A DNA stretch of 64,000 nt, taken from the NCBI GenBank assembly GCA_905221615.1, contig CAJNDT010000147.1:809391-873390 (forward strand). The letters are read 5' to 3'. Each line of letters opens with the position of its first letter. Position 1 is the stretch's first letter. Source of the stretch: Symbiodinium sp. CCMP2592. Taxonomy: Eukaryota; Sar; Dinophyceae; Suessiales; Symbiodiniaceae. The position numbers and the translations under genes are program-made. Shown piece by piece: positions 10,411 to 52,795 of this stretch. The notes below the pieces were generated by a model that saw nothing but the letters and a program-made list of their open reading frames with translations, did not search any database and was not told the DNA's origin.

Positions 10411-10454
10411 GTGGCACAACACACTAGCAAGCGGGCTTTGGAGAACGTTGGGTG

Positions 10455-10943: not shown

Positions 10944-10944
10944 G

Positions 10945-10976
<32 letters not shown>

Positions 10977-21068: not shown

Positions 21069-21100
<32 letters not shown>

Positions 21101-37846: not shown

Positions 37847-38350
37847 CGATTATCCGGGTTGTAGTTTTGGGGCTCTGCAAAGTATTTATGAATAGGCACC
37901 TCTATAGGAACCATAAGGGAAATCAAAAAGTTTCCCAAATTGCCACCTAGTTATGGGTTGCCACGAGTCTGCTTTTTGGTTTAGTACGTGTTTCTCAGTT
38001 TCGGGGTCGACACAAAATCCCAAAACCCAAAAAACACTTGTCTTAGTTTCGGGGTTTGAGGGCTGTTTGGTTTAGTATGTGCTTCTTGGTTTTGGGGTTT
38101 GGCGGTTGTTCGGTTTAGTACGTGCTTCTTAGCTTCGGGGTTGGTTTTTTTTGGTTTAGTGTGTGCTTCTTGGTTTCGGGGCTTGGGGGTTGTTTGGTTT
38201 AGTACGTGCTTCTTGGTTTCGGGGTTTGGCGAGTTTGGAGCTTTTGGCTATTCCTACTGGTCGGGTATCATGGGGAACTAAAGGTGAACCTTTTTGGTTA
38301 TATAGGGATAATAGAGGGACAATACTACCCAAATAAGGTTATAGTAAAAG

Positions 38351-38432
38351 CCAGAAAGTTGGAATATGATCCTAAACCCTTTATGGTAAATTATAGGGTC
38401 TCCTACCCTGAAGCCATATTCCAACTTTCTGG
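38351..38432. mobile_element. MITE-like hairpin, CCAGAAAGTTGG family, copy 2
   Basis: Same perfect 18-bp arms as 25,132-25,216 and nearly the same interior, only 150 bp from the Copia element. The upstream stretch 37,960-38,250 holds four tandem-like repeats of a TTTGGTTTAGTACGTGCTTC word. Confidence 0.75.
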
Positions 38433-38581
38433 AGTTCCCTTTAAAGGTTCCCTACTCGACTACTAGGCCTCAAAGTTTGAGGATTCTTCGGCTTCGTGGC
38501 TTGAAAAGTCTAGGGCTGCGTCCCAGCAGAGTCGCCTAGGTTTCGAGTGCCGGGTTCAGGGTGCAGCTATACTGAACTTAG

Positions 38582-38586
38582 AACCC
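38582..38586. repeat. Target-site duplication, left (AACCC)
   Basis: AACCC precedes the left LTR. The same five bases follow the right LTR at 51,957-51,961, as expected for Copia integration. Confidence 0.85.
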
Positions 38587-38738
38587 TATAGAATACACCA
38601 AAACCGTTAAGCCATGAGCGGTCGCGCTAACCTTTTACTCAGAGGGCTTGGGCACAATAGTCAGCGGTATATAGTACACAACATGATGACTGTACACGAC
38701 CATACAAACTCCTACGCAAGCTGCGATGCAAAACTACA
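38587..38738 (-). repeat. 3' LTR of the Copia element
   Basis: 152 bp, identical to 51,805-51,956. On the sense strand it begins TGTAG and ends CTATA. Confidence 0.95.
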
Positions 38739-38750
38739 CCCCCCTCACCT
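38739..38750 (-). other. Polypurine tract
   Basis: The sense strand reads AGGTGAGGGGGG immediately before the 3' LTR, the expected primer for plus-strand DNA synthesis. Confidence 0.8.
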
Positions 38751-39063
38751 AAAGGCACGGTCACTGCATTCAAAAACACAACATACCTTCGCCTGCAGGT
38801 GGAAGAGCGCTTCGGCTCGGAGTTTGACGATCGGCGTGGAGTTGCCTCCCGCGTCATCAGTTGTTTCAGCAAAAGTACATGTGACTACCGAGTGCCTCGA
38901 GGAAGGGTGCGAAAACTGCATGCGAGCTTTTCTTCAAATGCAAGACGCTGGTTTCAGCGTGGAGCAAGGACGATAGGAGTTCGCCGCACAGCCACTTGAA
39001 AAATATCACAGGCCGGGTGAACATCCCTCTTGCTCGAAAGAATCAGACTACTGGGTCGGCTTA
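38751..39063 (-). other. 3' untranslated region of the Copia element
   Basis: About 310 bp between the stop of the large frame and the polypurine tract. No convincing open frame. Confidence 0.7.
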
Positions 39064-39195
39064 TCAGTTCCAACGCCATCCGCGATTGCGCCACTCACGC
39101 CAGTCCTGGTTGTCCCAGTTCTGGCCGCGCCATGATCCCCAGGATGACGAAGACCAATTCTGCCACCAGGATTGATTATCCCAGTCCCAGTCGCG
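39064..39195 (-). other. Tryptophan-rich C-terminal tail
   Basis: The last 43 or so residues contain about 13 tryptophans, mixed with N, D, S, R (for example WWQNWSSSSWGSW). It follows a Gly/Lys-rich linker. Function unknown. Such tails could mediate self-association or RNA contact, which is speculation. Confidence 0.8.
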
Positions 39196-42100
39196 GTTGG
39201 TGCGATCGGCGGCCTCGGCGTTAGCCGGGCTTTTGCCTTTTCCCTTCTCTGCTGCTCGGGCATATGTAGAGCCCTTGCCACCACCTGGCGGATGCTGCTG
39301 GGCATACTTCGGCTGGGCAGCACGACTTTGATTGGCCTTTTTGATGGTTTCATCAACCGTCTCCACCATGAAGGGTAGGTCCTTTGCCAAAACGGTCTGC
39401 AGGTCCGTACCCACTGCAGCGGGATCGTAGTTGAGGAGATCCACCTTGCCGTGGCCAAAAGTCTGTAGACGGATGCCCCCCTTTTGCCTGGCGATGTTGT
39501 GAGCGAAATCTTGGAACGAAAGGATGGCTCCGTACCATGTAAATGCTACTGGCGTATCCTCCGGCGTGGACGTTAGTCCCGCTGCGCACAACTTGCCGCC
39601 AATGCCATCGTCTCCGGTAAAGAAAACGATACGACACTCTGGAACCTCGTCCGTGCGGAACTGGTGCGTGGAACTCGCCGCTCTGGAGGATCCAATAGCC
39701 AGCATGCGTTGCGATCGAGTGCGGCCAGGGTTCGGAAGGTAGGCGAAGCAGAGGCAGTCGAGGGCACGAATCGTTCTGCGTGTGTATCCCTCTTTGGCCA
39801 TTGAAATTGGGTATTCATTGTCATGATTGAACCTCGCCACGCAATCAGTGTAGCCCTTTTTCACGGCTCTCTGCTTTGCCACTTTGGCTTTCCGAATAAC
39901 CTCGCCTTCTAAGGAGTTCATGCCACGGCCGGCGACATCTTTCGATGCGCTTTGAAGGCTTGGCCTCACTCCCACTCGTTCAGCGGCATCACCCATCTCC
40001 TGAAGCAGAGCTTCACGCCCACGTGCCAACAGCGTCCGTCTGCCCTGTGCCTTCAATTGACCTGGTCGAACTGGCCCTCCGCATTGAGAGCAAATCCTTT
40101 GGCCTTGAAGACACTCAGCTTTGCAGTGGTAGCATTTGATTTTCTCCAAAAACGCGGCGGATGGCTTGGTCTCACTACCAGCATAAAGTACTGGTTCTGG
40201 CCTTCCCACCGGCTCCTGGATTGCTTCAACTGGTGTACCCTCAGCATCCAGCGTCACCGTTGTCGCCATTCCGTCACCGATGTACACAGTCCTGATTGGA
40301 GGACCCGGCTGTGCAATGATGGTGCCTGGTTCAACAAGCGGCCTCTCCTCTACGGAGGGCATTTGCTCATCATCAGGAGCTTCATCGTCGTCAGCCTTTG
40401 CAGGGGCATCGGTGATAGCCAACGATCCCTCAAGCACATCAGCGACATCTGGAATGGGCGGTAGGGATGTTTCCTCAGCTGGAAGGGTACCATGTTCTTC
40501 ATCAATAGGCGGTGCGAAATTGTCCTGAGTCGTCTCCTCAGCCTCGGGTTCATCAAGAACGATATCGATGCCGGCCTCAGCGTTAGCTGGGCTTTCACCT
40601 TGTTCCGTTTCATCAGGAGGGACAGCGCCTCCCGCACGGGACCAAAGTACGACATCGCGTTGCGTGTCATTGATGAACAAGATGGTCGAGCCGGGCACTG
40701 CCTCGGAGCACAGTATGCCATCAGATTCCGTAAGGAATAGGTCGCAACCAGCTTCGAGGACCTCCCGGGTGTCGAAGACGATCTCAATTGGTGCACTTGC
40801 ACGAAGTCCTGAACGTACCTTTTGCTCTTCGAGCGGCAGCGGCGCAAAATAACAATGCGCCTTCTCAGAACCTCCAAAACCAGGCAACAAACGATCTTCC
40901 AGAATCGCATACGCCGCATCATGTGTTGTGCGATGATAGAGTCTGGGCGGCGCCTTATCAATCGGGATCAACGGCCTGCCCTCTCGGGCGGCATTAGCCA
41001 GCTCTTCAGAACGCTGCAGTGTAAGATATGCCTTTGCAATAGAGGCATTGTCAAGCTGCAGATTGCTGGAGTGGCCTTGCGTACAACCGACGTAGACCGG
41101 AAAAGCCGGTTGGCCAATTGCATCGGCAGCACTGTCCATTGGTCCGCGAAACATAAGGCGCTGTTTGTTGTCGGTGGCGATCATGTCGAGGAGGCTTCCT
41201 AAACCAATGTCGCTTCCAGGTCTGCATCGATTAGCAACCTCAAGCACTTCCATGGCTAGTACCCATGGCCCGCTCCACGATCGCATTTTAAATTGATTAC
41301 CCTTGTTTTCGAAGTTGCCCCTGATCAGTCCAGTGACAAATGTGACCATCTTGTGGTCACATCTGGGGTAGTGTAGGCCTGGCGTCATGTCTTTTTGGAA
41401 CACTTCGATGTACTGGTCGGCCTCCTCTTGCGAGGGGCATTCGTTCCAGTAATCATACAGGGTAATGCCAGTCATCTCGGCGAAGTCGTAGGTGTCATTC
41501 ATGAACCTCATTCCGCGCGATCCCTGCACTGCGAGCTTGGTCAATCGCTGCTTGTCGGCCTCAGCCTTTGCGAGGCGAGCTCTTTTTGCAGCGTGCTCGG
41601 TGCCAGAGTCGCCAGCCAGAATGCCTCCACCATAAATGGATGCGTCGATCGGCATTGGTCGAATATCGCCAGAAGATGAAGCCGCAGTACTCGCCGGGGT
41701 AACGGCCTCCACCTTAGGTGGGGCTTGGTTCCATTCCGGCGAATTGATCTCCTCTTCTGTTGCGAAAACACCGGGCGCGACGCTGATGACATTCTGAATC
41801 TTCATCTCCTTGAGGAAGTCGGGGACCTCAGGCGCAGGCAGTTCGGCGTGACTTTCGTCACGCTTCTCCTCCCAGTATGCGTCGTCCCACGGATCCTCCT
41901 CCGTTGGCTCCGCTTTGACCTGCTTGCTTCTCGTCATCCTCGCAAGAGCCGCTTGCAGGACATGGTTATCAACTGCGTAGCGACCACGGGAATCAAAATA
42001 ATTTTCCGCAAGCAGTGATTGGAAGGCGGCTTCGCCCATTTTCGCTATTGCTCTGGAGGCGTAGCGCTCGGCGATCTCGATCTGCATGATGTGGGCTAAA

Positions 42101-45100
42101 CCCGAAACCATCTTGCGGCGGGATTCGCTGTCCTCGCGGAAATGGACGTTGTCATTGTAGAGTGCCAAATCTCCAAGGAAGGGGTGGATGTCACAGGCGG
42201 CGAGTCCTCTACGGACCGCTTCGTCCTTGAATCGCGCAATGCATTCATCGAACTGCTTTGGCAACCCGTAGACGAAGCTGCGAATTCCTGTGCAGATCAC
42301 AATGGACCCCACATATGGAGAACGGCGCTGCAGGTCTGCAAGCGCTTCAAGGTTTTGGCAAACTCTCCGACAGATCTTTTGCCAATCTCCGCGGGCCTCT
42401 ATGGGCGATTGATGGTCCCACCACGTCGGGACGCCGGGGCTGCAAAATATCCCGTATCTGCCGACGATCTCATTCGCCATCCAGACAATCTGCACGTCCA
42501 CCAGCAACTCTTGGTCGCCAGAGTAGCGCAGAGCCGTCTGGTCACAGAGGATCTGAGCCCTCTCCCGAAGTTCGGACAATGTTTTGCCCCACAGGGGTTC
42601 GTAAATTATCTCCCTGTATTGCAGATAGACCCCCGAGCTCGCTGCCTTCAAATCCGAGGAAAGGTCTGTCCTCGTTCTCTTGCCAGCAACGAAAACAGTC
42701 GTAGAGTCGGAGAGGAGGATGAGCACCCGCTTTCGGCCTCGATTTTCATCGGGCTTTAGCTGCGACATGCCAGACTGCGTCAGTGCTGCCACTCGGTTGA
42801 GCCCAGGATATCGATCCGTTTCAAAGCAGTTGTGAGCAGCCACTTGCACCGGCATGTACTGAAAAAGTGCTCGCAACTCTCCTTCGTCAATCGACTCTTG
42901 GAAGCCTATCGACTCGTGACTGATGACGGCCGCCCAAAGCTGGCGGCCCCAAAAATCGGCCAACTGCTCTTCGTAGGTCGCCATCGCTCTTCTACTCTCA
43001 GCTGCTACCACGGGACTAGGACCCGGCCTCAGCGTTAGCTGGGCTTTAGTTGTACAGTAAAGCGATGACAAAGCTGCGCATGCCAGTCCTTCATGTACCT
43101 TAGGTCCATCATTGTCCTTAGTAGTATGCACTTGCCAATCAGCATGCAATGCCGAAACCTTGGTTTTCGATGTCCTTAGTCGTCCACAGTCCTGGGTAGC
43201 TTCGAGCAGCAGCCGCTTCAATCGAAAAGACGATGCAAAGATCAGCGACCCGCTCTTGTGTTTCTCAAGACCGAAATCGTGTGCCAACTTAACAACAGCA
43301 GGCATACACCACATCTCGTTGTTAGCTGAAGCTTCCAACAGCAGGTGGGGCCTAAGACGTTTGGTTAATCGGCACAACGACATCAACGATTTCAGACATT
43401 TGTTCCATTCGTGGTCCGGCAGCGATGCAAAGTAGAGAATCGGTTTAGTGCTTCCCCCCTCGTCGCAGAGGGCACGAAGATTGTTAGCGATTTTTGACAT
43501 AGCTTTCGGATTCATGGTTTCAAGTTTGTTCGGGACAGGGATAACACGACAGGAATCATTTCCTGACAAGGTGGTTTCACTAGCGTTCCCAAAATCAAGC
43601 AAAACCCTGCAAAAGTCCATCGGCCTCGGCGCGAGCCGGGCGTCTGCAGGAGCGGCCGCCGCAGACCCGAGCCTAAAGCCGTGTTTGTTGAGGGTTTCAA
43701 GATCAGTTGTGGAAAGCTTGGGAAAACCACGAGAGGTATACGCGGTGATAGAAAAACGTTTTCCGGTATAAGGCAACACGCAGTGTTTCTTGGCTGGGTC
43801 AAAGACAAAAGGTTTGCAATGGGTGTCATGCACATCCCCTTTGATGGAACGTCCTTGAGCGTCTTTCTGGAACTGCGCCTTAGTATCCGAAACAGTCTGA
43901 TCTTCAACCCACAATCCACCTCCTTTGTGGTCACCAAAGCTAACCATCAGGTTCTTAGAACCCTTTAAGTTATGGGAATCAGCATGAACTTTTGCCATGT
44001 TGTCCTTGCTAATCACCACTGAGGTCCATGTGAAACCTGAGTCGGGAGAATGAGCTTTCACGAACTCATTCAAGTACCTGGCAACTGCGGGATACCTAGT
44101 GGTGCTTCTGGTAACACCTTGCATTCCACCGTGTGTCCAAGTTCCGTACACTTGATAATAGCCTTGTTTCTTTGATGCAATGCGAGGTCGCTTGGATTTC
44201 TTAGCTGTATGATTTGATGCAATCTCTTCACACAACCTTTCCAAAGCATCACAGCCGTACTCCTTCAGGCGGGAAAGTTCTGAAGCAACCATCTCAACCT
44301 CCTGAATGGCAGCAGCTGCTTTAGCACGTTTGCCTTGAACCTCGTGTGGTGTAGGAGAGCGGCCTGGCTTTTCAGCCGGCTTCGCATTCTGCGCATCAGG
44401 TACATGATTGATGAGCCTAAGCGCGTGTTCCCACTTACCACGTTCAGCAAACGGTTTTGTGAAGATGTCTGCGACCTGTTCTTTGGTATCAACATTGATC
44501 ATGTTGAAATGGCCCTTTTCGCACTGTTGCTTCATCCATGCAAACGAAAGTCGTTGCGTCCTATCGGTGTGACGAAGCTTTTCACTGTCACCCTTCGCAA
44601 TGATGGTGATTGTAGCTTGGTTATCTTCTAAGAACTGAACCTGAAACTTTTCAGAAAGATGAACGTCCAAGCCATTTATATCCGCGACAGAGCGTCCTTC
44701 ATGACTGAGTTCACCATACCTGATTTCATCAAGCTCCGGGTCAATCCTTGCAACGATTGTTTCCGTGACTTTAGGTGATTCCGCCGGCGGCCTGGTCTTT
44801 CGACCGGCTGCATTAGCGGTAACCTCTCCCCAAAGGTAACACCACAAGCTTAAGCTAGGCAGGCCTTGTGCTCTGATGCCGTGATTCGCTGAAACTACTT
44901 CACTTTCGGTGCTAGACGTCGTGATGCTGGTCTGTTTCTTTGAAAAAGCGTTCAACGGGTAGTAAGTGTTGGGCCCAACCAAGAACAGTGCGCATCCTGA
45001 TGTGGATTTGGAATCAAATTCTCCTGCCCAATCGGCGTCACAGAAGAGCCACAACTTACAGTCCGAAATCTTATCGCCAATAAAACCCTGCATCGTGATG

Positions 45101-48042
45101 TCCAAGCTCGAATTAATGTAGCAGATCAGCCGATGTAAACCGACATCGCAGTCCCTTGACCACTTCGTGACCCTAGAAGCAAGCGACTGGGTACACCGAA
45201 GTAAGTCCCACCTTGCCATTCTTGCTGCAAACAACACCTTCATGAGGACCCGACTGGCAATCGGTTGTAACCTCCCCTGGGGTTCGTTGCCTTCCACAGG
45301 TTTGGCTACTCTGTTCTCATGAAACGGCGTAGCTGCAAACTTCAGGGAATCACGTGAAACTTTAGCTAATTCACAGTACTTGTCGACACAGGAGACCAGG
45401 AAGTCCTTCATGTCATACGTCACAACGTTGACAGGCTTAGTCATAGCGGGGACGGGTTCCTTGATGATCGTATCAGTGCTCTTAAATCTAGACTGCTTAG
45501 CTTCGCGCTTAGCGTCTGATTTGCTTCTCATCGGCCTGCCCTTTCGGGCGGCAGCAGCGAGCTTAAAGTCGTCTGCCGTCGTTGGCATGATAGAGAAGAT
45601 TGTTTTGCCCGTCCACCACTCGTTTCGCCTAGCAGGGCCCCCCTGATTGGAATCATCCTGTATCTGATCTCCATTCTCAAACTCTGTTATGCGTTCAGTT
45701 CCCAGAGTGGGAAACTGTCTCATGTCGTCTTCACTTGGTACGTACAAACGCTTTCTGGGGTACCTGTGATGTCTGATTGCAAGCGCAGCATCCGGATCAA
45801 CCTCCCAATAATCTTCTGTTCTACTCGGCCTGGAGTTTCCTCCGGCTGCTGGTGCTGCAATTTTCTTGTCGAAGACATAAGCAAAAGGATGTGCGCTGCG
45901 GTCAAGCATAACACCGTTCTGCTCTCGATGATTGCAACCAAAGTATCTCCCAAATGGTTCCGAAGGATCCATATCCAAAACCTTCCCAATCCCCTCCCAT
46001 CCCTTAGCAAGATTGTCCTTTGGTCCTGCCATTTTGAAATCGTCGACGTAGACGACGAGGAGGAGATCTAATTCCGGATGGTAAAAGATACTTTGCCATA
46101 TATCTGGAAGAACCGGGATCCACCCTATGCTCTTCAACTGAGCAGTGCAGTGTCGTTCCCAGATGCCGCCGCTGTCAGGATGTCCATACAAAGCGAGTCT
46201 GAGAGGACAAACTGGGTCGCGAAAGTTGCGCCACTCGGGCGGTCGACGATTCTTGGGAAGTCGAACCCAAGTCGCAATCCCTTTGAACAAAGCTTGAGTA
46301 TACGCTTGTCGAGCATCAGCTTGCTGTTTTGCATAGCCTGGTTGGCTTCCGAACACATCGATGATTTTACCCGCTTCCATACTTGCAGGGCTAGAACCCA
46401 GTTCGGCGAAGATCGCGTGATCCGCATTTTCATCTCGAACCTGGTTCCCCTGGAACACAGAGCGTCCCTTGTAGTACTTAAGCGGATTACCATCCTGCAA
46501 CTCGGAACCCTTAAGGCTGCAAATCTCGAACACGTTCCCGAAGTGAGCCTTTTCGCCTTTTGCCTTGGTTTCAGACAAGACGTCGTCGTACTCACGAACT
46601 TGTTTCTCAAGCCAACACCCTTTATCAAGAAGTTTCTTCCATTCTTTGTCCATAGCAGCCTGAGCCTCAGGGTTTCTGGCAACATCATTCTGATTGATAA
46701 GCTTGGCAACCACAGCGAAAAGATCCTCGCAAGTTTCCTCTAGCTTATCCAGAAATAAACCGTGCAACCTCTTCCCATCCTCAGGCGTCCTCGGTCGATG
46801 AGGTTCTCGATGTCCAAGGAGAACAGGCATAGCGGGAGCTTCTTTCTCTCGTTCTTCTTTTAATCTAGCTTCCTCCCGCGCAACCTTCTTCTCCCATCGT
46901 TCGATTTCCTCTTTTCGTTGTTGTGCGGAATACATGTGCCAGAATTCAGACGGGACATCAGGAGGTCTTTTGGAGCCTTTCTTGTTCCTCACGAGTCTAA
47001 CCCCATCCCAATTGTAACCAGCAGGAACCGGTCTACCATCAGGATATTTCGTGGGATCAAACAGATCACCTTTGGAACTAGATGATGGCTCACTGGGCTT
47101 AGGCGCGGCCTCACCTTTCGGTGGGCTTTGATCGTCATCGGGTTCGGGTTCGGATAAGCCGATTTCATCAAGAAGTTCGCCTGCCTCACGAAGTCCCCGT
47201 TCCTTTTCTTCATCTGAAGCATGAATGTTCTGATCATCCAACAGTGGAACCTCGTGTGCCTCGCGATCCTTGATCCTTCCCGATTGAAGTGGGAACTCAA
47301 AACTTCCCTCAATCAACTCAACGCGCTTAGCCCTGATGACCTTGAGGTTTCCGTCCTCAATGGCAAACTGTGCGTCTTTCACGGGTGCAATCAAATACTC
47401 CTTCTTCCAAACAAACCCTGGTTGGATATGGTATCCCAGGAAGATCCCTTCAACCCCAGTTGACGAAAACTTGGAAGTCTCCGGAACATTCTGTTTAGGG
47501 TTATGCCAATACAAGACCTTAGCTCCGAAAGGAACAATCAATCCCGCAAAGGACTCCCCAAAGCGTGCCTCCCATGGGATTTCACCAGTATCCACTCGTT
47601 TTGTGAGATTGAGCGCAATGGAGTGGTGCTGAGCTGCTAAAGGCCAAAACCGTTCTGGAAGACCGGCTTGCTCCAAGTTCGAGCGCGTACCCTCTAGTAC
47701 GGTGCGGATTTCCCGTTCGATGACGGCCTTAGTTTCATCCACGTACTCTCTAGAGGTGTTGTGCCTACATCGGAGTTCCTTCACAGCTGCTCCCAACTCC
47801 GGCGCGTTGTCAGAGTAGATAACCCCAACTTCGTCTTGCGTACCGAAAAAGTGCAGAAGGTCCTCATGCACTTGTTCCGTTGATTTTGTTGCGCTAGGAT
47901 ACACATACCTAAATTGCGAAAACACATCTTTGATAACAAGCGCCACCCTCTCATCCTGAAATCCAAAGTCCCTCAGATCTCTTGTCACGAGATGATCAAT
48001 GGTAACATGATCCCCATACTTTTCACTGTGTATGGTCGAAGA
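39064..48042 (-). CDS. Copia Pol with giant C-terminal extension (INT-RT-RH-dioxygenase-SGNH-Tpt1-Zn)
   Basis: A single frame of about 3,000 residues. The first codon of the longest open stretch (48,090) is GTG, so no independent start is implied; the protein should be made by frameshifting from upstream. I number residues from 48,090. Order: integrase core 1-220, reverse transcriptase about 480-760 (YVDD at 681-684), RNase H about 1,010-1,230, dioxygenase-like about 1,310-1,470, an unassigned region about 1,480-1,680, SGNH-like about 1,785-2,010, Tpt1-like about 2,205-2,480, an acidic linker, a zinc ribbon near 2,650, and a Trp-rich tail. Usual Copia Pol ends after RNase H. No internal stop or frameshift is seen, which argues for an active or very young copy. 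Confidence 0.93.
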   Translation of the reverse strand, partial: SSTIHSEKYGDHVTIDHLVTRDLRDFGFQDERVALVIKDVFSQFRYVYPSATKSTEQVHEDLLHFFGTQDEVGVIYSDNAPELGAAVKELRCRHNTSREYVDETKAVIEREIRTVLEGTRSNLEQAGLPERFWPLAAQHHSIALNLTKRVDTGEIPWEARFGESFAGLIVPFGAKVLYWHNPKQNVPETSKFSSTGVEGIFLGYHIQPGFVWKKEYLIAPVKDAQFAIEDGNLKVIRAKRVELIEGSFEFPLQSGRIKDREAHEVPLLDDQNIHASDEEKERGLREAGELLDEIGLSEPEPDDDQSPPKGEAAPKPSEPSSSSKGDLFDPTKYPDGRPVPAGYNWDGVRLVRNKKGSKRPPDVPSEFWHMYSAQQRKEEIERWEKKVAREEARLKEEREKEAPAMPVLLGHREPHRPRTPEDGKRLHGLFLDKLEETCEDLFAVVAKLINQNDVARNPEAQAAMDKEWKKLLDKGCWLEKQVREYDDVLSETKAKGEKAHFGNVFEICSLKGSELQDGNPLKYYKGRSVFQGNQVRDENADHAIFAELGSSPASMEAGKIIDVFGSQPGYAKQQADARQAYTQALFKGIATWVRLPKNRRPPEWRNFRDPVCPLRLALYGHPDSGGIWERHCTAQLKSIGWIPVLPDIWQSIFYHPELDLLLVVYVDDFKMAGPKDNLAKGWEGIGKVLDMDPSEPFGRYFGCNHREQNGVMLDRSAHPFAYVFDKKIAAPAAGGNSRPSRTEDYWEVDPDAALAIRHHRYPRKRLYVPSEDDMRQFPTLGTERITEFENGDQIQDDSNQGGPARRNEWWTGKTIFSIMPTTADDFKLAAAARKGRPMRSKSDAKREAKQSRFKSTDTIIKEPVPAMTKPVNVVTYDMKDFLVSCVDKYCELAKVSRDSLKFAATPFHENRVAKPVEGNEPQGRLQPIASRVLMKVLFAARMARWDLLRCTQSLASRVTKWSRDCDVGLHRLICYINSSLDITMQGFIGDKISDCKLWLFCDADWAGEFDSKSTSGCALFLVGPNTYYPLNAFSKKQTSITTSSTESEVVSANHGIRAQGLPSLSLWCYLWGEVTANAAGRKTRPPAESPKVTETIVARIDPELDEIRYGELSHEGRSVADINGLDVHLSEKFQVQFLEDNQATITIIAKGDSEKLRHTDRTQRLSFAWMKQQCEKGHFNMINVDTKEQVADIFTKPFAERGKWEHALRLINHVPDAQNAKPAEKPGRSPTPHEVQGKRAKAAAAIQEVEMVASELSRLKEYGCDALERLCEEIASNHTAKKSKRPRIASKKQGYYQVYGTWTHGGMQGVTRSTTRYPAVARYLNEFVKAHSPDSGFTWTSVVISKDNMAKVHADSHNLKGSKNLMVSFGDHKGGGLWVEDQTVSDTKAQFQKDAQGRSIKGDVHDTHCKPFVFDPAKKHCVLPYTGKRFSITAYTSRGFPKLSTTDLETLNKHGFRLGSAAAAPADARLAPRPMDFCRVLLDFGNASETTLSGNDSCRVIPVPNKLETMNPKAMSKIANNLRALCDEGGSTKPILYFASLPDHEWNKCLKSLMSLCRLTKRLRPHLLLEASANNEMWCMPAVVKLAHDFGLEKHKSGSLIFASSFRLKRLLLEATQDCGRLRTSKTKVSALHADWQVHTTKDNDGPKVHEGLACAALSSLYCTTKAQLTLRPGPSPVVAAESRRAMATYEEQLADFWGRQLWAAVISHESIGFQESIDEGELRALFQYMPVQVAAHNCFETDRYPGLNRVAALTQSGMSQLKPDENRGRKRVLILLSDSTTVFVAGKRTRTDLSSDLKAASSGVYLQYREIIYEPLWGKTLSELRERAQILCDQTALRYSGDQELLVDVQIVWMANEIVGRYGIFCSPGVPTWWDHQSPIEARGDWQKICRRVCQNLEALADLQRRSPYVGSIVICTGIRSFVYGLPKQFDECIARFKDEAVRRGLAACDIHPFLGDLALYNDNVHFREDSESRRKMVSGLAHIMQIEIAERYASRAIAKMGEAAFQSLLAENYFDSRGRYAVDNHVLQAALARMTRSKQVKAEPTEEDPWDDAYWEEKRDESHAELPAPEVPDFLKEMKIQNVISVAPGVFATEEEINSPEWNQAPPKVEAVTPASTAASSSGDIRPMPIDASIYGGGILAGDSGTEHAAKRARLAKAEADKQRLTKLAVQGSRGMRFMNDTYDFAEMTGITLYDYWNECPSQEEADQYIEVFQKDMTPGLHYPRCDHKMVTFVTGLIRGNFENKGNQFKMRSWSGPWVLAMEVLEVANRCRPGSDIGLGSLLDMIATDNKQRLMFRGPMDSAADAIGQPAFPVYVGCTQGHSSNLQLDNASIAKAYLTLQRSEELANAAREGRPLIPIDKAPPRLYHRTTHDAAYAILEDRLLPGFGGSEKAHCYFAPLPLEEQKVRSGLRASAPIEIVFDTREVLEAGCDLFLTESDGILCSEAVPGSTILFINDTQRDVVLWSRAGGAVPPDETEQGESPANAEAGIDIVLDEPEAEETTQDNFAPPIDEEHGTLPAEETSLPPIPDVADVLEGSLAITDAPAKADDDEAPDDEQMPSVEERPLVEPGTIIAQPGPPIRTVYIGDGMATTVTLDAEGTPVEAIQEPVGRPEPVLYAGSETKPSAAFLEKIKCYHCKAECLQGQRICSQCGGPVRPGQLKAQGRRTLLARGREALLQEMGDAAERVGVRPSLQSASKDVAGRGMNSLEGEVIRKAKVAKQRAVKKGYTDCVARFNHDNEYPISMAKEGYTRRTIRALDCLCFAYLPNPGRTRSQRMLAIGSSRAASSTHQFRTDEVPECRIVFFTGDDGIGGKLCAAGLTSTPEDTPVAFTWYGAILSFQDFAHNIARQKGGIRLQTFGHGKVDLLNYDPAAVGTDLQTVLAKDLPFMVETVDETIKKANQSRAAQPKYAQQHPPGGGKGSTYARAAEKGKGKSPANAEAADRTNRDWDWDNQSWWQNWSSSSWGSWRGQNWDNQDWREWRNRGWRWN
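39212..39230 (-). repeat. Copia mini-hairpin 1
   Basis: RNA-strand GCC-CGGC-UAAC-GCCG-A-GGC. Encodes part of SPANAEA. Confidence 0.85.
40079..40138 (-). other. Zinc-ribbon motif
   Basis: CYHCKAECLQGQRICSQCGG, a CxxC...CxxC pair within about 20 residues, the pattern of a zinc ribbon. It separates the Tpt1-like part from the C-terminal region. Confidence 0.75.
40574..40592 (-). repeat. Copia mini-hairpin 2
   Basis: GCC-CAGC-UAAC-GCUG-A-GGC. Same loop as hairpin 1, with a compensatory G-to-A and C-to-U pair change in the stem. Confidence 0.85.
40650..41480 (-). other. Tpt1/KptA-like RNA 2'-phosphotransferase domain
   Basis: Recognisable family motifs occur in order: FVTGLIRGNF where the family has an LRH block, DNKQRLMFRG matching the ndKqRF block, CTQGHSSN matching RAxQGHS (His at residue about 2,340), RLYHRTTHDAAYAIL matching YHGT...IL, and VRSGLRA...SDGILCSEAVPGS at the end. 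Tpt1 enzymes transfer an RNA 2'-phosphate to NAD+. Here the His of LRH and the Arg of RAxQGHS appear replaced (IRG and GCTQGHS), so classical activity may be lost or altered. The fold assignment is inference from motif order. Confidence 0.7.
40974..40992 (-). repeat. Copia mini-hairpin 3
   Basis: GCC-GCCC-GAGA-GGGC-A-GGC, in the Tpt1-like region. Confidence 0.85.
42060..42735 (-). other. SGNH/GDSL-hydrolase-like domain
   Basis: VLILLSDSTT (Ser about 1,796) fits the block-I GDSxT motif with the first Gly changed to Ser. VDVQIVWMANEIV contains an Asn in the block-III position. LYNDNVHFRED (Asp about 1,980, His about 1,983) fits the C-terminal DxxH. SGNH esterases occur in some other retroelements, for example as an ORF1 domain in CR1 LINEs. 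I infer an esterase-like fold; substrate unknown. Confidence 0.6.
43026..43044 (-). repeat. Copia mini-hairpin 4
   Basis: GCC-CAGC-UAAC-GCUG-A-GGC. Same sequence as hairpin 2 but read in another frame (AQLTLRP). Confidence 0.85.
43050..43640 (-). other. Unassigned domain between dioxygenase-like and SGNH-like parts
   Basis: About 200 residues with KPILYFASLPDHEWNKCLKS, RPHLLLEASANNEMWCMPAV and FRLKRLLLEATQDCG. Alternation of strands and helices suggests an alpha/beta domain. I considered a degenerate methyltransferase fold but see no catalytic motif. Confidence 0.4.
43623..43641 (-). repeat. Copia mini-hairpin 5
   Basis: GCC-CGGC-UCGC-GCCG-A-GGC, at the 3' border of the dioxygenase-like domain. 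Confidence 0.85.
43690..44170 (-). other. 2OG-Fe(II) dioxygenase-like domain
   Basis: VHADSHNLKG gives an HxD pair (residues 1,369 and 1,371). KKHCVLPYTGKRFSITAY supplies a distal His (1,436) and an Arg nine residues on (1,445), the HxD...H...R arrangement of 2-oxoglutarate/Fe(II) oxygenases. GDHKGGGLWV between them fits the jelly-roll core. The HxDxHN context recalls the TET/JBP family. All metal- and cosubstrate-binding positions seem present. Substrate unknown; oxidation of thymine or methylcytosine in DNA is only a hypothesis. Confidence 0.6.
44362..44380 (-). repeat. Copia mini-hairpin 6
   Basis: GCC-GGCU-GAAA-AGCC-A-GGC, just after RNase H. Confidence 0.85.
44430..45070 (-). other. RNase H domain (Copia type)
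   Basis: CDADWAGEFDSKSTSGCALF (first Asp near residue 1,018), SSTESEVVSA, LEDNQAT, then DRTQRLSFAW and ADIFTKPF, the full Copia RNase H series. Confidence 0.95.
44790..44808 (-). repeat. Copia mini-hairpin 7
   Basis: GCC-GGUC-GAAA-GACC-A-GGC, inside an insertion in the RNase H region. Confidence 0.85.
45534..45552 (-). repeat. Copia mini-hairpin 8
   Basis: GCC-GCCC-GAAA-GGGC-A-GGC, between RT and RNase H. Confidence 0.85.
45828..45846 (-). repeat. Copia mini-hairpin 9
   Basis: GCC-GGAG-GAAA-CUCC-A-GGC, just after RT. Confidence 0.85.
45870..46660 (-). other. Reverse transcriptase domain (Copia type)
   Basis: Motifs in order: MDKEWKKLLDKGCW, KGRSVFQGNQVRDENADHAI, QADARQAYTQA, LRLALYGHPDSGGIWE and the catalytic VVYVDDFKMAG (YVDD at 681-684). 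Intact. Confidence 0.95.
47108..47126 (-). repeat. Copia mini-hairpin 10
   Basis: GCC-CACC-GAAA-GGUG-A-GGC, in the linker between integrase and RT. Confidence 0.85.
47400..48042 (-). other. Integrase core
   Basis: DDE-type triad candidates are Asp 32 (VTIDHL), Asp 94 (VIYSDNAPEL) and Glu 125 (AVIEREIRTV), followed by RSNLEQAGLPERFWPLAAQ, the usual integrase tail. The N-terminal zinc module is encoded just upstream in another frame. Confidence 0.9.
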
Positions 48043-48048
48043 CCCCCC
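48042..48048 (-). promoter_or_regulatory. Candidate -1 frameshift site 2 (GGGGGGT)
   Basis: In the zinc-module frame the heptamer is G GGG GGT. A 6-nt spacer then leads to CCATAC...GTATGG, a 6-bp stem with a 10-nt loop. A -1 slip gives exactly the Pol frame. The alternative is loss of one G from the homopolymer by mutation or sequencing error. Confidence 0.45.
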
Positions 48049-48592
48049 TTTCTTCGAGCTTGGGGAGATAGCATCTTCGCCTTTTGGCACACTTTGCAGA
48101 ATGGGTTCTTAGGACGATGGCAGAATTGATGATGGATGCTTTCGGCCTCGGCGCGAAGCCGGGCTTCTTGCGAGATTTCCTTTCCCTCATCTTCTTCCTT
48201 GTCACTATCGGGCTCGATTAAGGGGTCGTCCTCGGGTCTTTTGAAAGCAGTAATCGACAGAATTGGCGATCCATCAATCTTTTGATTTTTAACCCTTAGA
48301 CTTCTGATGTCAACAGAATCCTCAATCTTGCTCCAAGCAGAGTCCTTGTAGATCCAAGTGGTCCTTAGCACGAACCTTGGATGACGAGGTGCAGGTACTC
48401 GCAAAGCCTTTGGCCGATGACCAATAATGATCTTTGATGCGGCAATTTCACTGCTAGTGATCCAACCTGGCTTGGCTAAATCTTTAGGCTTGATTGCAAT
48501 TGGCGGTGCAGAATTGATTGCTTCTTCTATCTCGGAGTCGCTGTGGACGACTCTTTCATCCCCGGCCGGTCCTCTCGGACGGCTTTCTACTG
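48042..48592 (-). CDS. Copia linker frame with integrase HHCC zinc module
   Basis: The third reading frame is open from a TGA at about 48,630 past the end of Gag to beyond 48,042. It encodes about 180 residues ending in HHQFCHRPKNPFCKVCQKAK, the HHCC zinc module that precedes Copia integrase. It has no start needed if reached by -1 shifting near 48,593-48,599, and it joins the Pol frame by a further -1 shift near 48,042-48,048. Confidence 0.8.
48145..48164 (-). repeat. Copia mini-hairpin 11
   Basis: GCC-CGGC-UUCGC-GCCG-A-GGC, 5-nt loop, just before the integrase zinc module. Confidence 0.8.
48565..48583 (-). repeat. Copia mini-hairpin 12 (at frameshift site 1)
   Basis: GCC-GUCC-GAGA-GGAC-C-GGC. 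The only copy with C instead of the bulged A. It lies 9 nt after the GGGTTTC heptamer. Confidence 0.85.
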
Positions 48593-51500
48593 GAAACCCG
48601 AAGACTCGTCCTCCGCAGGTGCCGCCAGTTCAACCTTGACTGTACCGGCGTTAAACACCTGAGTTCCAGCAGATTTCTGGGAATCATCAGCGCTTGCTGG
48701 GCTCGCTACCGAGTCATCATTTGAGATCACTGGGACTCTACCCTTCATCTTACACTTGATGACTTTACCATCGGGAGCTATAAAGTATGGAACCTTGCCC
48801 GCAGGCCAATGGAAATCATATCCATCGTCCATGCATCTTCTCCCAACAGAACAAACCGGTGGCGTGCTTTCCAGTAGATAGCACTCAATGTTTTGCTTCA
48901 GTTCAGGCATCGGGATGTTGGTTGATTTGATTCCCTGAACTGGACCATTAGCTGTAATCAAGTTGACCGGCCTACTAGCGTTTTCAATGGGAGCCTCTGG
49001 GTAGTAGATAGAGTGATCGTGCCTACTGATCAGATCTTCTTCACTGCCAGTATCGGCGAGGAATTCTAATCCCGCATTAAAGCTAGAGCATGCTGTTCTT
49101 TCCACGCTAGAACACAGCTCGCACTTCAACACTGCAACTGGGATCTCACCCTCTTCACAGTCATCTGTGCACTCGTACTCACAGTGGCTTTCAATCCCAT
49201 TGAGCATACAGGACATGATCCTGGCAAGCTCGTTCGCTGTTCTTATGGCCGTGCTTAGGTCCTGAACTGGAGGCTTTGGGCAGCTTTCAGCATCCAAGTA
49301 ACAAACTTCGAAAGTTCGCGGTTTGGTCCTATGCTTCTTACCCTTACCATCCAATGGAATCTCCCGAATGCTTGGCTTCTCCTTGAACCTTAATTTCTTG
49401 AACGTTCCTGAAGCATCACCCTTAACGCCTTGCCCATTGGGCACAGCTGCCAGCGCATACGAAATGCAACAAGCTGCCGTGCGTCCGCCAGACTTTTCCT
49501 TGCTCTTGGACCTGCCCCTTTGTTTCTTTTCCTTCTTTGCTTTAGGATCCGGGGTCGGACTCCTAGGCTTTTCATCGTTCTTCGCAGGGGCGGCCTGCTC
49601 AGTAGGAGCGGCGTCAGTTGGATTGGGCTTATCTTGATGCAGGAACCTACAGTCTTTGCCTTTGTTGCACTTGCCTTTCTTCCAAAAGGTGCAAATCGCG
49701 TTGATCTTCTTCTGAGGCGTTCGATGAGGACTTGGGGATCTTGACTTTGGTTTGTGGAGAAACTTACACTTGTCGCCTCTTGTGCATTTTCCTTTCTGGA
49801 AGTCGTAACAAACCTGTTGTGTTTTGGGACTCTGAGATCTAGGCGGTGTTCGTTGGCTCGATCCTTTGCTGCTTGTTCTGGATTTTGAGCTACTTCGGGA
49901 CATGCTTCTTCCACGGCCTCCTCGTGAAGAGGGGCGACGTTCAGATCCGTACGCTGGGGCCCCGTATCTATCGCCATGCGATTTAGCGATGCGGTCACGG
50001 TTCTTGCGCATCCGTTCTCTAGTTAGATGCTCCCTAATGGCATTGACGAGGAACTCATACGTGCGTACGGGGTTTCCTTCCTTTGCCCTGTCGTACAGCT
50101 GAAGATCGTACTTGATGTGGTGGGATTTCCGAATTTCCCTCAGCAAAATGTCCCTCAAGGTAACTTCATCCGGAACATGACTCATTCCAGCAATCACCGA
50201 CTCGAAGTTGTAAAGGAAGGTAGCCAAGTCGTCCCCAACCAACTTCACCTTTAAAAGGTCTTCTACGCTATAGAGGCTTCCGACTTCTTCATTAGTCTTA
50301 AAGTGTTGATGAAACATCCACAATACCTGTCTTCCCCTGACGGCACGTCCTCCTGTGGCCTCTGTTTCTTTGAAGTTTAGGACTTGCCTTGAAATCTCTC
50401 CTCTAGCGACTCTGGTAAGTGCAGCCAACAACTTCGTGTCCAATGTTAAGAATTTCCCAGTGTCATGCAAGGACTTGAGGGTAGCCTCTTTATCATATAC
50501 TTCCTGCACCCAGCGAAATGCCTCATCCGGGCGATCGCTCGCAGCCCGCACAATCTCGCGGACCGAGATCCGCCACGATCGGTAGGTCTCTGGATTAGGG
50601 TAATCGGGAAGCTTGATACTTTCGGCTTCTTTCACCTTTGGTTTGCCCTCTTCATCTTCGGTCTTAGGGGTAAGCAAGCGTGCTGCCCTAATCAATGCCT
50701 CAGCTCCGAAATCAACATGTGGAACCCCGTCTGGGTCAACAGTCGCCGGCTTACCCGCTTGGGCAGCTTTAGGAGACTTTTCCTTTTGTGGCTCTCTGTT
50801 CTCAAACCCAGGTGGTACAGAAGTTCCTTGCGGAGGTTCCTGAGCTTGCGGCGTTCTTCCGAAGATGTCCTTCATATTCTCGGGAATCTCAAATGGATTT
50901 GAGAACGGGACAGCAGGATTAGGTCCTGGCTTCGGCGTGGCATATTGTTTGCCCGCTTCGTCCGCATTGGCTTCCATTCTTAGGGCTCGTTCTGCGGCAG
51001 CCAGTTCATCCTGCAGTCTGTCGTTTTGTGCACTCATTTCAGCGATTTCAGTAATGAAACGCCGTTCCATACTCGCTTCGGTTTCTTCAAGAACTTGTTT
51101 GAATCGCATTCCAAGAAAATCAAGATGTTGTGCTTTGTTGCGTTCGCTCTCAGCAATCAGAGTGGTTCTGAGCTTAGCGATTTCCGACTGATGTCGTTGT
51201 TGGAAAATTGATTCCAGAATGTTCATTTCATTCCTGCATGTTGCAACTTCGTTCAACAAAAACTTTTCCCTTTGGGATGCGTTGAACTCAAATTCCGCAA
51301 ACTGTGCTTCGCATTCTGCCATCTTCACCTCATGAAGGCGCTCGGCCTGTTCAGCCATGCCAGCCATTCTCACAAGATTATCATGCGATTGTTGGTTCAG
51401 AATGCTTGCGTGTCTTCTTTCAGCATCTGCCTCCGTTCGCTCTATTGCCATTCTTTGTTGTTCGGCTGTTTCACCCTGGTTCACAACATTGTACAAGGTA

Positions 51501-51739
51501 TACTGCACGTTTGAGATGTCGACCGTTGGATTTGAGACAAATGGAGATAGGGTAGGACCCACTGGACCGAAGATCCTATCAAGTGCTTGGGATCCTGAGC
51601 TCGGTGCCGTAGGGCCCGCGCCAGCTGCTGTAAGTTGTTCATCAAGCAGTCGATCTCTTGTTTCGTCGTCCATCTCGTCCGATGATACTTCGGTTGTTTC
51701 TCCCTTCTCAGTAGTGAGCAGAGAGGGCGAAGTACTCAT
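48587..51739 (-). CDS. Copia Gag-protease polyprotein
   Basis: I choose the ATG at 51,739, giving 1,050 residues; the open stretch extends to a GTG at 51,772. An N-terminal acidic region is followed by a long coiled coil (about residues 90-250), a Gag core (KLPDYPNPETYRSWRISVRE onward), a Ser/Arg-rich linker, and two CCCH zinc fingers (CYDFQKGKCTRGDKCKFLH and CTFWKKGKCNKGKDCRFLH). A retropepsin with FLADTGSEEDL (Asp about 896) follows. CCCH fingers instead of the usual CCHC knuckle are notable. The start lies only 65 nt after the 5' LTR. Confidence 0.92.
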   Translation of the reverse strand: MSTSPSLLTTEKGETTEVSSDEMDDETRDRLLDEQLTAAGAGPTAPSSGSQALDRIFGPVGPTLSPFVSNPTVDISNVQYTLYNVVNQGETAEQQRMAIERTEADAERRHASILNQQSHDNLVRMAGMAEQAERLHEVKMAECEAQFAEFEFNASQREKFLLNEVATCRNEMNILESIFQQRHQSEIAKLRTTLIAESERNKAQHLDFLGMRFKQVLEETEASMERRFITEIAEMSAQNDRLQDELAAAERALRMEANADEAGKQYATPKPGPNPAVPFSNPFEIPENMKDIFGRTPQAQEPPQGTSVPPGFENREPQKEKSPKAAQAGKPATVDPDGVPHVDFGAEALIRAARLLTPKTEDEEGKPKVKEAESIKLPDYPNPETYRSWRISVREIVRAASDRPDEAFRWVQEVYDKEATLKSLHDTGKFLTLDTKLLAALTRVARGEISRQVLNFKETEATGGRAVRGRQVLWMFHQHFKTNEEVGSLYSVEDLLKVKLVGDDLATFLYNFESVIAGMSHVPDEVTLRDILLREIRKSHHIKYDLQLYDRAKEGNPVRTYEFLVNAIREHLTRERMRKNRDRIAKSHGDRYGAPAYGSERRPSSRGGRGRSMSRSSSKSRTSSKGSSQRTPPRSQSPKTQQVCYDFQKGKCTRGDKCKFLHKPKSRSPSPHRTPQKKINAICTFWKKGKCNKGKDCRFLHQDKPNPTDAAPTEQAAPAKNDEKPRSPTPDPKAKKEKKQRGRSKSKEKSGGRTAACCISYALAAVPNGQGVKGDASGTFKKLRFKEKPSIREIPLDGKGKKHRTKPRTFEVCYLDAESCPKPPVQDLSTAIRTANELARIMSCMLNGIESHCEYECTDDCEEGEIPVAVLKCELCSSVERTACSSFNAGLEFLADTGSEEDLISRHDHSIYYPEAPIENASRPVNLITANGPVQGIKSTNIPMPELKQNIECYLLESTPPVCSVGRRCMDDGYDFHWPAGKVPYFIAPDGKVIKCKMKGRVPVISNDDSVASPASADDSQKSAGTQVFNAGTVKVELAAPAEDESSGFQ
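48593..48599 (-). promoter_or_regulatory. Candidate -1 frameshift site 1 (GGGTTTC)
   Basis: G GGT TTC in the Gag frame, a perfect X XXY YYZ heptamer, lies one sense codon before the Gag stop. After a 9-nt spacer comes a 7-bp hairpin with a GAGA loop (48,583-48,565). A -1 slip enters the zinc-module frame. The overlap of the two frames is only about 40 nt, so the shift must occur here if it occurs. Confidence 0.65.
49593..49612 (-). repeat. Copia mini-hairpin 13
   Basis: GCC-GCUC-CUACU-GAGC-A-GGC, 5-nt loop, in Gag after the second CCCH finger. Confidence 0.8.
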
Positions 51740-51784
51740 GTACCAGTGTGAATACCAGTGTAAGAATACCACGGAGACAAAGTC

Positions 51785-51804
51785 AGCGAATACGGCTGAT
51801 AACC
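51785..51804 (-). other. Primer-binding-site-like sequence
   Basis: Directly after the 5' LTR the sense strand reads GGTTATCAGCCG, which resembles the TGGTATCAGAGC site of many plant Copia elements (complementary to initiator Met tRNA) but is not identical. The primer tRNA is therefore uncertain. Confidence 0.5.
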
Positions 51805-51956
51805 TATAGAATACACCAAAACCGTTAAGCCATGAGCGGTCGCGCTAACCTTTTACTCAGAGGGCTTGGGCACAATAGTCAGCGGTATATAGTACACAAC
51901 ATGATGACTGTACACGACCATACAAACTCCTACGCAAGCTGCGATGCAAAACTACA
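51805..51956 (-). repeat. 5' LTR of the Copia element
   Basis: 152 bp, identical to 38,587-38,738. Transcription of the element should start here. No obvious TATA box or polyadenylation signal is recognisable. Confidence 0.95.
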
Positions 51957-51961
51957 AACCC
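51957..51961. repeat. Target-site duplication, right (AACCC)
   Basis: Matches 38,582-38,586. Confidence 0.85.
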
Positions 51962-52795
51962 AAGCAAAAATTAGAATTTTAGCTGGTTCTTATGGATTAT
52001 AATAATAACCAAAAACTAAAAATTGTTTCAAGTTACCCCTAAGGTAGGTGACGTCAACTTGCAGAGACCACCTGGCACCCTACAGTATTCGTTGAGGGGC
52101 TCCACTGCACTATGAACAAGTGCATACTGATAAGTCTACACCCAACCTAAGGCTTGGGAAAAAAACTGAACCCAAGCCTCAGTGGTAATTAGGTGTTTAA
52201 GTGTTGCAAATACAGCTTGCTGGGAGAGTCAAGGTAAAGCTCTCCCTGAAACCCTAAACCCCAAGCCCTAAGCTCCAAGCCCTAAACCTAAACCCGTGGT
52301 TGTCTCACGTGCTCAGCCACCGGGGACTTCCATGTCAAGCGTGAACCTAAACCTAAACCCCAGCCCTAAGCCCTAAACTTTCTAGATCTGCCCCGACCCC
52401 AAAACCCTAAACCCCAAGCCCTAAGCCCCAAACCCTATAACCGAAACCCCACCCCTAAGCTCTGAACTTTCTGGATCTGCCCCGATCCCACAACACCATA
52501 ATCCCGTGACAGGGCTTCGGGTTCAACTAGGCTTTAGTGGCTTAAGGCTTTGTGATTCGGGGTTTAGGGTGAAAAAATTAGGCTTTGGGGTTTTTAAAGT
52601 TTGGGATTTAGGGTTCGGGGTTGGGAATTTAGGGTTCGGGGTTGGGGATTTCAGGTCTAAGCGTTGGGGCGTAGGGTTTAGAGTGCAGCGAGCCAGTCGG
52701 CCGCAAAGAGCGCACCAAGAAAGCCCTTGCGTCTGAGCGCCGAGCCCCAGAAACGGAGCCGTAACGATCCGAACAGAGCTACCATGCTAGTATAT
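51962..52795. other. Non-coding stretch with degenerate telomere-like words
   Basis: Many CCCTAAACCCC-, CCCTAAGCCCC- and GGGTTTAGGG-like words and no convincing exon. A duplicated CTTTCTGGATCTGCCCCGA-like word recurs near 52,378 and 52,468. Confidence 0.6.

Follow-up and report, generated by a model that had tools for sequence, protein, structure and literature searches.

The 64,000-nucleotide stretch of Symbiodinium sp. CCMP2592 DNA analysed here (contig CAJNDT010000147.1, positions 809,391 to 873,390 of the forward strand; hereafter the window) contains a Copia long terminal repeat (LTR) retrotransposon, the window copy of a family designated W, whose RNA carries 25 small hairpins of one design, mostly within the coding sequence. 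The element lies between two AACCC 5-bp repeats (38582-38586 and 51957-51961; flanking sequence inspected), and its LTRs are 152 bp long and 100% identical to each other by blast, so that it shows the direct LTRs and short target duplication of Ty1/Copia elements. It comprises two open reading frames (ORFs).

38587..51956, minus strand: Copia LTR retrotransposon, 13,370 bp (terminal repeats and 5-bp duplication)
51805..51956, minus strand: 5' LTR (blast of the element's own locus against the window)
48587..51772, minus strand: ORF1, Gag-like, with a capsid-like helical domain, an RS-rich stretch and two CCCH zinc fingers (ORF and motifs, predicted model and fold comparison)
39064..48090, minus strand: ORF2, with integrase, reverse transcriptase, RNase H and extra domains including a KptA/Tpt1-like one (motifs by eye and weak Pfam matches)
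38587..38738, minus strand: 3' LTR (blast of the element's own locus against the window)

ORF2 contains an SH3_retrovirus match (residues 187-221) followed by an RVT_2 match (residues 539-722), which is the Copia order; both are below the Pfam cut-off, as are the SH3_retrovirus and RVT_2 matches of a second family, F, described below. RVT_2 (PF07727) is precomputed on relatives that include P0004 (64% identity), P0005, P0011, P0013 and P0017. A KptA/Tpt1-like RNA 2'-phosphotransferase domain, to our knowledge an unusual retrotransposon cargo, is found in W ORF2 (residues 2276-2462, E 7.9e-9) and in family F (E 1.4e-8). The ORF2 stretch 41,911-42,753 was considered as an SGNH hydrolase from a motif recognised by eye, and was rejected after a PDB sequence search gave nothing convincing. 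A third open frame (47,985-48,629) lies between ORF1 and ORF2 of the window copy and overlaps two hairpins, while many other listed copies have an open frame of 3,187 residues, as against 3,014 in the window copy.

A preliminary description of the window had reported 13 hairpins in this element. All 13 are present as described, with nine inner stems, GAAA loops in five, GAGA in two and UAAC in three, and a bulged A in 12; their positions were correctly given, but as the low ends on the plus strand, the RNA being the minus strand, and the count was incomplete. Sites are named here by their high plus-strand coordinate, which is the RNA 5' end. The form scanned for was GC(C/G)-N4-loop-N4'-N-(C/G)GC-CG with perfect pairing required, so that imperfect sites are missed. 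A strict GCC...GGC scan yields 18 hairpins with trailing CG on the minus strand of the window and one plus-strand match without CG, at 56,145, outside the element, while allowing the covarying outer stem GCG...CGC yields 23 perfect hairpins, every one of which lies within the element on the RNA strand and has the trailing CG. A covariance model built from 16 hairpins adds the unbulged site 41,863, and a hairpin with a G-U pair at 50,767 brings the set to 25. In the following list, fractions refer to the W copies fetched from the genome, and F and T are two further families.

50933..50956, minus strand: hairpin GCG-GGCA-AACAATA-TGCC-A-CGC-CG (outside fetched copies)
50747..50767, minus strand: hairpin with one G-U pair, GCT-GCCC-AAGC-GGGT-A-AGC-CG (outside fetched copies)
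49914..49935, minus strand: hairpin GCC-CCTC-TTCAC-GAGG-A-GGC-CG (outside fetched copies)
49591..49612, minus strand: hairpin GCC-GCTC-CTACT-GAGC-A-GGC-CG (outside fetched copies)
48563..48583, minus strand: hairpin GCC-GTCC-GAGA-GGAC-C-GGC-CG, C bulge (identical in 17/17 covering copies)
48143..48164, minus strand: hairpin GCC-CGGC-TTCGC-GCCG-A-GGC-CG (identical in 16/16)
47106..47126, minus strand: hairpin GCC-CACC-GAAA-GGTG-A-GGC-CG (identical in 17/17)
45826..45846, minus strand: hairpin GCC-GGAG-GAAA-CTCC-A-GGC-CG (identical in 18/18)
45532..45552, minus strand: hairpin GCC-GCCC-GAAA-GGGC-A-GGC-CG (19/19; codon column common to W, F and T)
44788..44808, minus strand: hairpin GCC-GGTC-GAAA-GACC-A-GGC-CG (16/19; all three stem changes are here; codon column common to W, F and T)
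44360..44380, minus strand: hairpin GCC-GGCT-GAAA-AGCC-A-GGC-CG (17/19; only loop and trailing base vary)
43621..43641, minus strand: hairpin GCC-CGGC-TCGC-GCCG-A-GGC-CG (20/20; codon column common with F)
43024..43044, minus strand: hairpin GCC-CAGC-TAAC-GCTG-A-GGC-CG (20/20)
42734..42754, minus strand: hairpin GCC-CGAT-GAAA-ATCG-A-GGC-CG (21/21; codon column common to W, F and T)
42198..42219, minus strand: hairpin GCG-GTCC-GTAGA-GGAC-T-CGC-CG (21/21)
41844..41863, minus strand: unbulged hairpin GCG-TGAC-GAAA-GTCA-CGC-CG (covariance model; 21/21)
41703..41724, minus strand: hairpin GCC-CCAC-CTAAG-GTGG-A-GGC-CG (21/21)
41418..41438, minus strand: hairpin GCC-CCTC-GCAA-GAGG-A-GGC-CG (18/21; only loop varies)
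40972..40992, minus strand: hairpin GCC-GCCC-GAGA-GGGC-A-GGC-CG (21/21; codon column common with F)
40572..40592, minus strand: hairpin GCC-CAGC-TAAC-GCTG-A-GGC-CG (20/21; only loop varies)
40339..40360, minus strand: hairpin GCC-CTCC-GTAGA-GGAG-A-GGC-CG (20/21; only loop varies)
39930..39950, minus strand: hairpin GCG-CATC-GAAA-GATG-T-CGC-CG (21/21)
39562..39582, minus strand: hairpin GCG-GGAC-TAAC-GTCC-A-CGC-CG (21/21)
39210..39230, minus strand: hairpin GCC-CGGC-TAAC-GCCG-A-GGC-CG (exact 21-mer used to choose the copies)
38832..38852, minus strand: hairpin in the 3' non-coding part, GCG-GGAG-GCAA-CTCC-A-CGC-CG (21/21)

Twenty-two of the 25 hairpins are located in ORF1 or ORF2; of the other three, 48,583 and 48,164 lie between the ORFs and 38,852 in the 3' non-coding part. 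Spacings along the RNA are 139 to 1,280 nt, and within the coding sequence all three reading frames are used, in agreement with the preliminary description. Many scattered stem-loops with a common recognition motif, as in dispersed packaging signals, are found in this RNA. In the 23 perfect hairpins the bulged base is A (20), U (2) or C (1), the tetraloops are GNRA or UNAC in 15 of 16 cases, and the three preceding bases comprise a purine (22/23), an A (18/23) and a third base that is never G (0/23), while the helix between loop and bulge is of constant length within a family, 4 bp or 5 bp. The one W tetraloop outside this class, UCGC at 43,641, is also the one tetraloop outside it in family T, at a different site (L034:7041). 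Local folding in a context of about 300 nt gives a mean pair probability above 0.8 for 14 of the 23 hairpins. An Rfam 15 scan of 38,400-52,100 gave no match at the gathering score, the lone match up to E = 1 being sR39 (E 0.23; 20.2 bits, 50 being required), which is not at a hairpin.

As GC-rich Ala, Gly, Arg and Pro codons favour such stems, chance or constraint at the protein level was weighed as their source. The shuffled-codon control named in the preliminary description was run on each ORF as 1,000 shuffles of codon order and 1,000 synonymous ones. ORF2, with 17 observed hairpins, gave means of 0.018 (codon order) and 0.074 (synonymous), and ORF1, with 3 observed, gave 0.004 and 0.010; no single shuffle of either kind or ORF contained more than 2 hairpins. 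The antisense strand of the element contains no hairpin of the scanned form, and the remaining 50,630 bases of the window contain none with trailing CG and one per strand without it. These shuffles, the use of three reading frames and the absence of fourfold-site change in the hairpins (see below) refute this explanation, which retains practically no probability. The strong covariation claimed among the 13 sites is partly built in because the sites were chosen for pairing; the independent evidence is conservation across copies and across families.

Copies of family W were obtained from the 1.098-Gb genome, the one genome read at the DNA level. An exact search with the 21-mer of site 39,230 gives 81 matches, the window's own included, and its reversed control none; 20 of these 81 places, fetched as 10-kb stretches, and two earlier stretches make up 21 distinct copies, L009 and L014 being two stretches of one copy (C61) that is counted once. 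These copies share 88.9-99.6% identity with the window element over the aligned part and cover 20 of the 23 perfect hairpins, the three others, in ORF1, and 50,767 lying outside; site 39,230 was left out of the counts, as the copies were chosen by it. Changes were found in 3 of 5,259 stem cells (all in two copies at site 44,808), 0 of 375 bulge cells, 2 of 750 trailing CG cells and 8 of 1,584 loop cells (GAAA>GAGA, GCAA>GAGA, GCAA>GGAA, UAAC>UGAC, GUAGA>GCAGA), compared with 715 of 22,492 cells in the 30-nt flanks. The copies are related and their cells not independent, so that a per-site count is the fairer measure: when only fourfold-degenerate third positions aligned in 15 or more copies are counted, 0 of 75 vary inside the hairpins versus 542 of 1,367 outside (Fisher 1.6e-16), and selection therefore acts below the protein level. 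That the W hairpins are cis-acting RNA structures under strong purifying selection is well supported by this sequence comparison, which covers the 20 perfect ones.

The preliminary description confined the hairpins to one Copia element, which proved too narrow, as three families in the genome carry hairpin sets. A genome protein search, with 150 of 1,445 candidates scored, gave 79 matches to W (the window's own included) and 71 to F (rows counted by eye). One F element, read across the neighbouring stretches L032, L031 and L033, has 164-bp LTRs that are 100% identical and 23 sense hairpins, 5 in the Gag part and 18 in L031, under a rule somewhat looser than that for W (GCN as foot and CN as trailing dinucleotide); this count excludes foot-GCA matches, one per LTR copy (L032:1078 and L033:241), and a foot-GCA inverted repeat upstream of the element that matches on both strands (L032:273), apart from which no antisense hairpin was found. 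In one pair of F copies, 0 of 252 stem cells are changed versus 16 of 1,080 in the flanks.

The third family, T, was identified by way of P0016, with 41 of 2,585 candidate places scored, and has 15 hairpins in one 10-kb stretch (L034), with none antisense and 0.3 in shuffled sequence. Five pairs separate the loop from the bulge in its hairpins and two lie below the bulge, versus four and three in W, with one G-U pair allowed; this form was found after looking, as four bulge positions (3, 4, 5 and 6 pairs above the bulge) were tried and gave 0, 3, 15 and 0 sense hairpins. The stricter W-type scan (three pairs below the bulge) finds only one GC-footed hairpin in T, and the T rule set to four pairs finds 24 sense and 0 antisense hairpins in W and 20 + 5 sense and 0 antisense in F. 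P0031, a protein of Symbiodinium sp. CCMP2592 named NLRC3, has Copia-like and KptA parts as well as the heptapeptides ATRKGES (once) and ATREGEP (twice), which fit family-T hairpins, and its name looks wrong; P0022, a related Copia-like protein, contains a DNA methylase domain (PF00145) besides RVT_2.

As judged from the stretches read, the three Copia families each carry their own hairpin dialect of loop, flank or bulge style on the same architecture. W has GNRA or UNAC loops, and all 23 of its hairpins end in the trailing CG. Loops in F include AUCA and UUA, GNRA or UNAC occurring in only 1 of 15 tetraloops; the foot is preceded by a C in 20 and next to it an A in 21 of the 23 hairpins, the trailing dinucleotide is CA in 15, and the bulged base is A (12), U (9) or C (2). 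T has GCAA or GCGA loops in 13 of 15 and an A bulge in 12 of 15. Hairpins are interrupted inverted repeats in DNA too, and the sites might act as DNA, in cruciform formation, integration, methylation or recombination; this is very improbable, as each family's own form occurs only in the transcribed orientation, with none antisense in the three families, and the loop classes of W and T match those known from RNA tetraloops.

When the ORF2 proteins of the three families are aligned together (identity W-F 46%, W-T 42%, F-T 40%), hairpins begin in exactly the same codon column at 5 of 17 F sites compared with W, 3 of 14 T sites compared with W and 5 of 14 T sites compared with F, whereas random placement gives 0.02-0.03 on average and at most 2 in any of 20,000 trials per pair. 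With a tolerance of 9 nt the counts become 7 for W-F and 5 for F-T, neither reached in any random trial, while W-T stays at 3, reached by 85 of 20,000 trials. Similar hairpin-encoded peptides could pull the protein alignment to such coincidence, an effect that the random control does not remove. Three sites are common to all three families (W 45,552, 44,808 and 42,754). The stems at 44,808 are GGTC.GACC in W, AACC.GGTT in F and CGGCC.GGCCG in T, and those at 42,754 are CGAT.ATCG, CGGC.GCCG and CAACC.GGTTG, respectively; site 43,641 has an identical stem in W and F. Such differing but paired stems at orthologous places represent, as read from the alignment, compensatory change. The copy and family comparisons both indicate that the structure is selected independently of the protein. 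At the place of W 47,126, F has GCC-CCCC-GGAA-GGGG-AC-GGC-CG with a two-base bulge, which was seen afterwards and is uncounted. Back-translation of P0001-P0087 (4-nt loop, A bulge) gave 91 feasible sites versus 18.7 in shuffled sequences, 13 of them in the window's P0001, and among six 7-mers picked by eye at site 44,808 those of P4, P6, P8 and P9 can encode seven pairs while those of P5 and P7 cannot, compared with 11 of 300 random 7-mers; as a protein-based procedure without DNA this is a pointer only, superseded by the DNA families.

The preliminary description also considered a very small mobile hairpin, inserting into retrotransposon RNA or DNA, to which the in-frame 21-nt unit (with a 4-nt loop) and the gap-rich surroundings of the sites (gap fraction 0.17 versus 0.06 in random windows for F, 0.20 versus 0.11 for T) would conform. 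The pattern GCC-N4-GAAA-N4-AGGCCG has 573 genome matches versus 39 for the reversed pattern, and the first 100 of the 573 comprise 92 perfect hairpins, in which all six stems are known W stems, and 8 unpaired ones (by eye). The F pattern has 205 matches versus 1 reversed, 98 of the 100 listed being paired with two L031 stems, one having one mismatch and one being unpaired (by eye). For the T pattern (125 matches versus 3 reversed), 78 of the 100 listed are paired and 22 are not; the stems of the 78 are AACC (40, known from L034), CAGG (32) and ACCC (6, on three contigs outside those read), and the CAGG hairpin lies about 3.4 kb downstream of AACC in most copies, which for the L034 copy is just past the stretch read. 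Among the matches listed, each W or F hairpin is a fixed component of its family and not a free element; the same is likely of the T hairpins, some of which lie in contigs outside those read. Sites at which a related family has no hairpin are mostly not clean 21-nt gaps, with full gaps at 2 of 18 for F and 1 of 18 for T. No copies at unrelated places were found among the matches listed, and no clean insertions relative to empty sites in these alignments. With no stem beyond the six known ones among the first 100 of the 573 matches, the same places across copies and homologous sites with different stems, a free mobile hairpin was rejected as very improbable. Relatives were also looked for among viral contigs, where five pattern matches were obtained, none being a relative by tblastn.

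The preliminary description proposed that the hairpins are recognised as RNA, in packaging, in the control of translation or by a binding protein. To the extent that sequence allows, this is supported by the conservation of structure, not protein, across copies and families and by the loop classes, any choice among the three roles being tentative. On the favoured reading, which has about an even chance, the hairpins would be family-specific binding sites for a protein, scattered along the genomic RNA, and most probably signals for packaging by Gag. The element RNA presents about 25 dispersed seven-base-pair hairpins of one recognition design, with a GC-rich foot, a single 3'-side bulge four pairs below the loop, a mostly GNRA-like loop and a fixed trailing dinucleotide. 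Because each family has its own dialect yet keeps the architecture and several positions, we infer a trans-acting factor that reads the hairpins and has changed together with them. The likeliest reader would be the element's own Gag, with its capsid-like domain, RS-rich stretch and two CCCH fingers, and the spaced hairpins could serve as multiple signals for packaging and assembly, bringing several Gag molecules together on the cognate genomic RNA and setting it apart from that of rival families in the same cell. The fuller proposal of a family-specific RNA address code, in which 15 to 25 dialect hairpins per family would let a co-evolving element protein sort its own RNA, is tentative, with somewhat less than an even chance.

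Several observations weigh against the Gag packaging reading. The W ORF1 hairpins lie outside the fetched copies, three W hairpins (48,164, 43,641 and 39,230) have pair probabilities below 0.1 in the context of about 300 nt, and the three bases preceding W hairpins vary among the copies at the rate of the flanks (37 of 1,128 cells), so that they may not be part of the motif, though motif-like among sites. Evidence for conservation within T is weaker, as in its one copy pair 3 of 210 stem cells are changed versus 38 of 900 in the flanks, two of the three changes breaking the shared site 4962. Most hairpin sites are not common between families, and the set therefore turns over. The ORF1 capsid match is below the tool's safe level for helical folds, and Foldseek gave no match at E <= 0.001. 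Tandem CCCH fingers usually read single-stranded RNA, which would leave the reading of hairpins to the RS-rich part or some other domain.

Alternatively, the hairpins could be read by an RNA-binding protein of the host, acting in export, stability or translation of the 13-kb unspliced RNA. Hairpins along the whole RNA, the 3' non-coding one at 38,852 included, are as expected of transcript-wide marks, and retroviral export elements are RNA structures as well (PMC4829213). However, a common reader would be expected to hold one dialect, and the three families differ in dialect within one host protein set, which leaves this a possible but rather doubtful alternative to Gag. It is unlikely that an RNA-processing activity acts on the hairpins, or that they shield the RNA against host silencing, with involvement of the KptA/Tpt1-like domain; this domain is present in both families tested (W and F) and the loop-to-bulge helix has a constant length within a family, but the domain may serve something else.

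Elsewhere in the window, tandem repeats adjoin the W element at 38,041-38,231 (64-102 bp alignments, 85-91% identity by blast), and a head-to-tail repeat of about 10 kb occupies positions ~1,500-11,500 and ~11,600-21,600, with an offset of 10,122-10,124 bases, 99.9-100% identity in eight compared 1-kb blocks and a 100-N gap at 11,401-11,500; it looks like an assembly duplication beside the gap. A tRNA search of the window found none.

How LTR retrotransposons choose their own RNA is an unsettled question. The candidate signals described here are near-invariant, easily seen, repeated about 25-fold and present in three dialects in one genome, thus offering ready-made specificity controls. RNA structure, moreover, constrains a coding frame of 3,000 residues across all reading frames, a point to be considered when selection on such proteins is interpreted. 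If the address code is true, it would be a reiterated retrotransposon packaging code with natural specificity switches already made by evolution, and several rival retrotransposons, each in tens of copies or more, would sort their own genomic RNA in one cell. In the titles and abstracts searched, no description was found of dispersed hairpins in coding regions of dinoflagellate or other retrotransposons, and the available part of a review of dinoflagellate genomics mentions Copia elements and not hairpins (PMC11453091).

The W, F and T hairpins resemble the dispersed packaging signals of MS2 type (Twarock, Stockley) in that many stem-loops of a genome share a common motif on varying stems, and the MS2 motif likewise combines a bulged A with a loop motif; the bulge is on the 5' side in MS2, whereas it is on the 3' side here (PMC6281560). 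Unlike the signals of single-stranded RNA viruses, these belong to a retrotransposon, two of the three families having GNRA-like loops, the copies scarcely varying and rival families of one genome differing in dialect, and capsid-protein binding is putative. Dispersed packaging signals of RNA viruses are usually so degenerate that proof is hard. Lambda-type boxB occurs at few sites per genome and is without such a bulge. The likeness to boxB, for which no homology is claimed, lies in GNRA-like tetra- or pentaloop hairpins, which in that system are read by the N peptide, UMAC-type and pentaloop variants also being mentioned (PMC12550061). In Ty1 and Ty3, LTR retrotransposon RNA is recognised by Gag; the available part of a review states that the sequences for packaging lack a clear definition and that several sites scattered in the RNA may play a part. 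Unlike in W, F and T, the Ty1 sites named there are at the 5' end (pseudoknot), and that part describes no reiterated hairpin series (PMC4974528). Mobile palindromic elements (REP, RPE, repetitive hairpin elements) are also short hairpins at many places. Some RPE copies lie within coding sequence. In contrast to these mobile elements, the W, F and T hairpins are conserved, are found at fixed places and, among the matches listed, confined to their families, with stems that differ at homologous sites.

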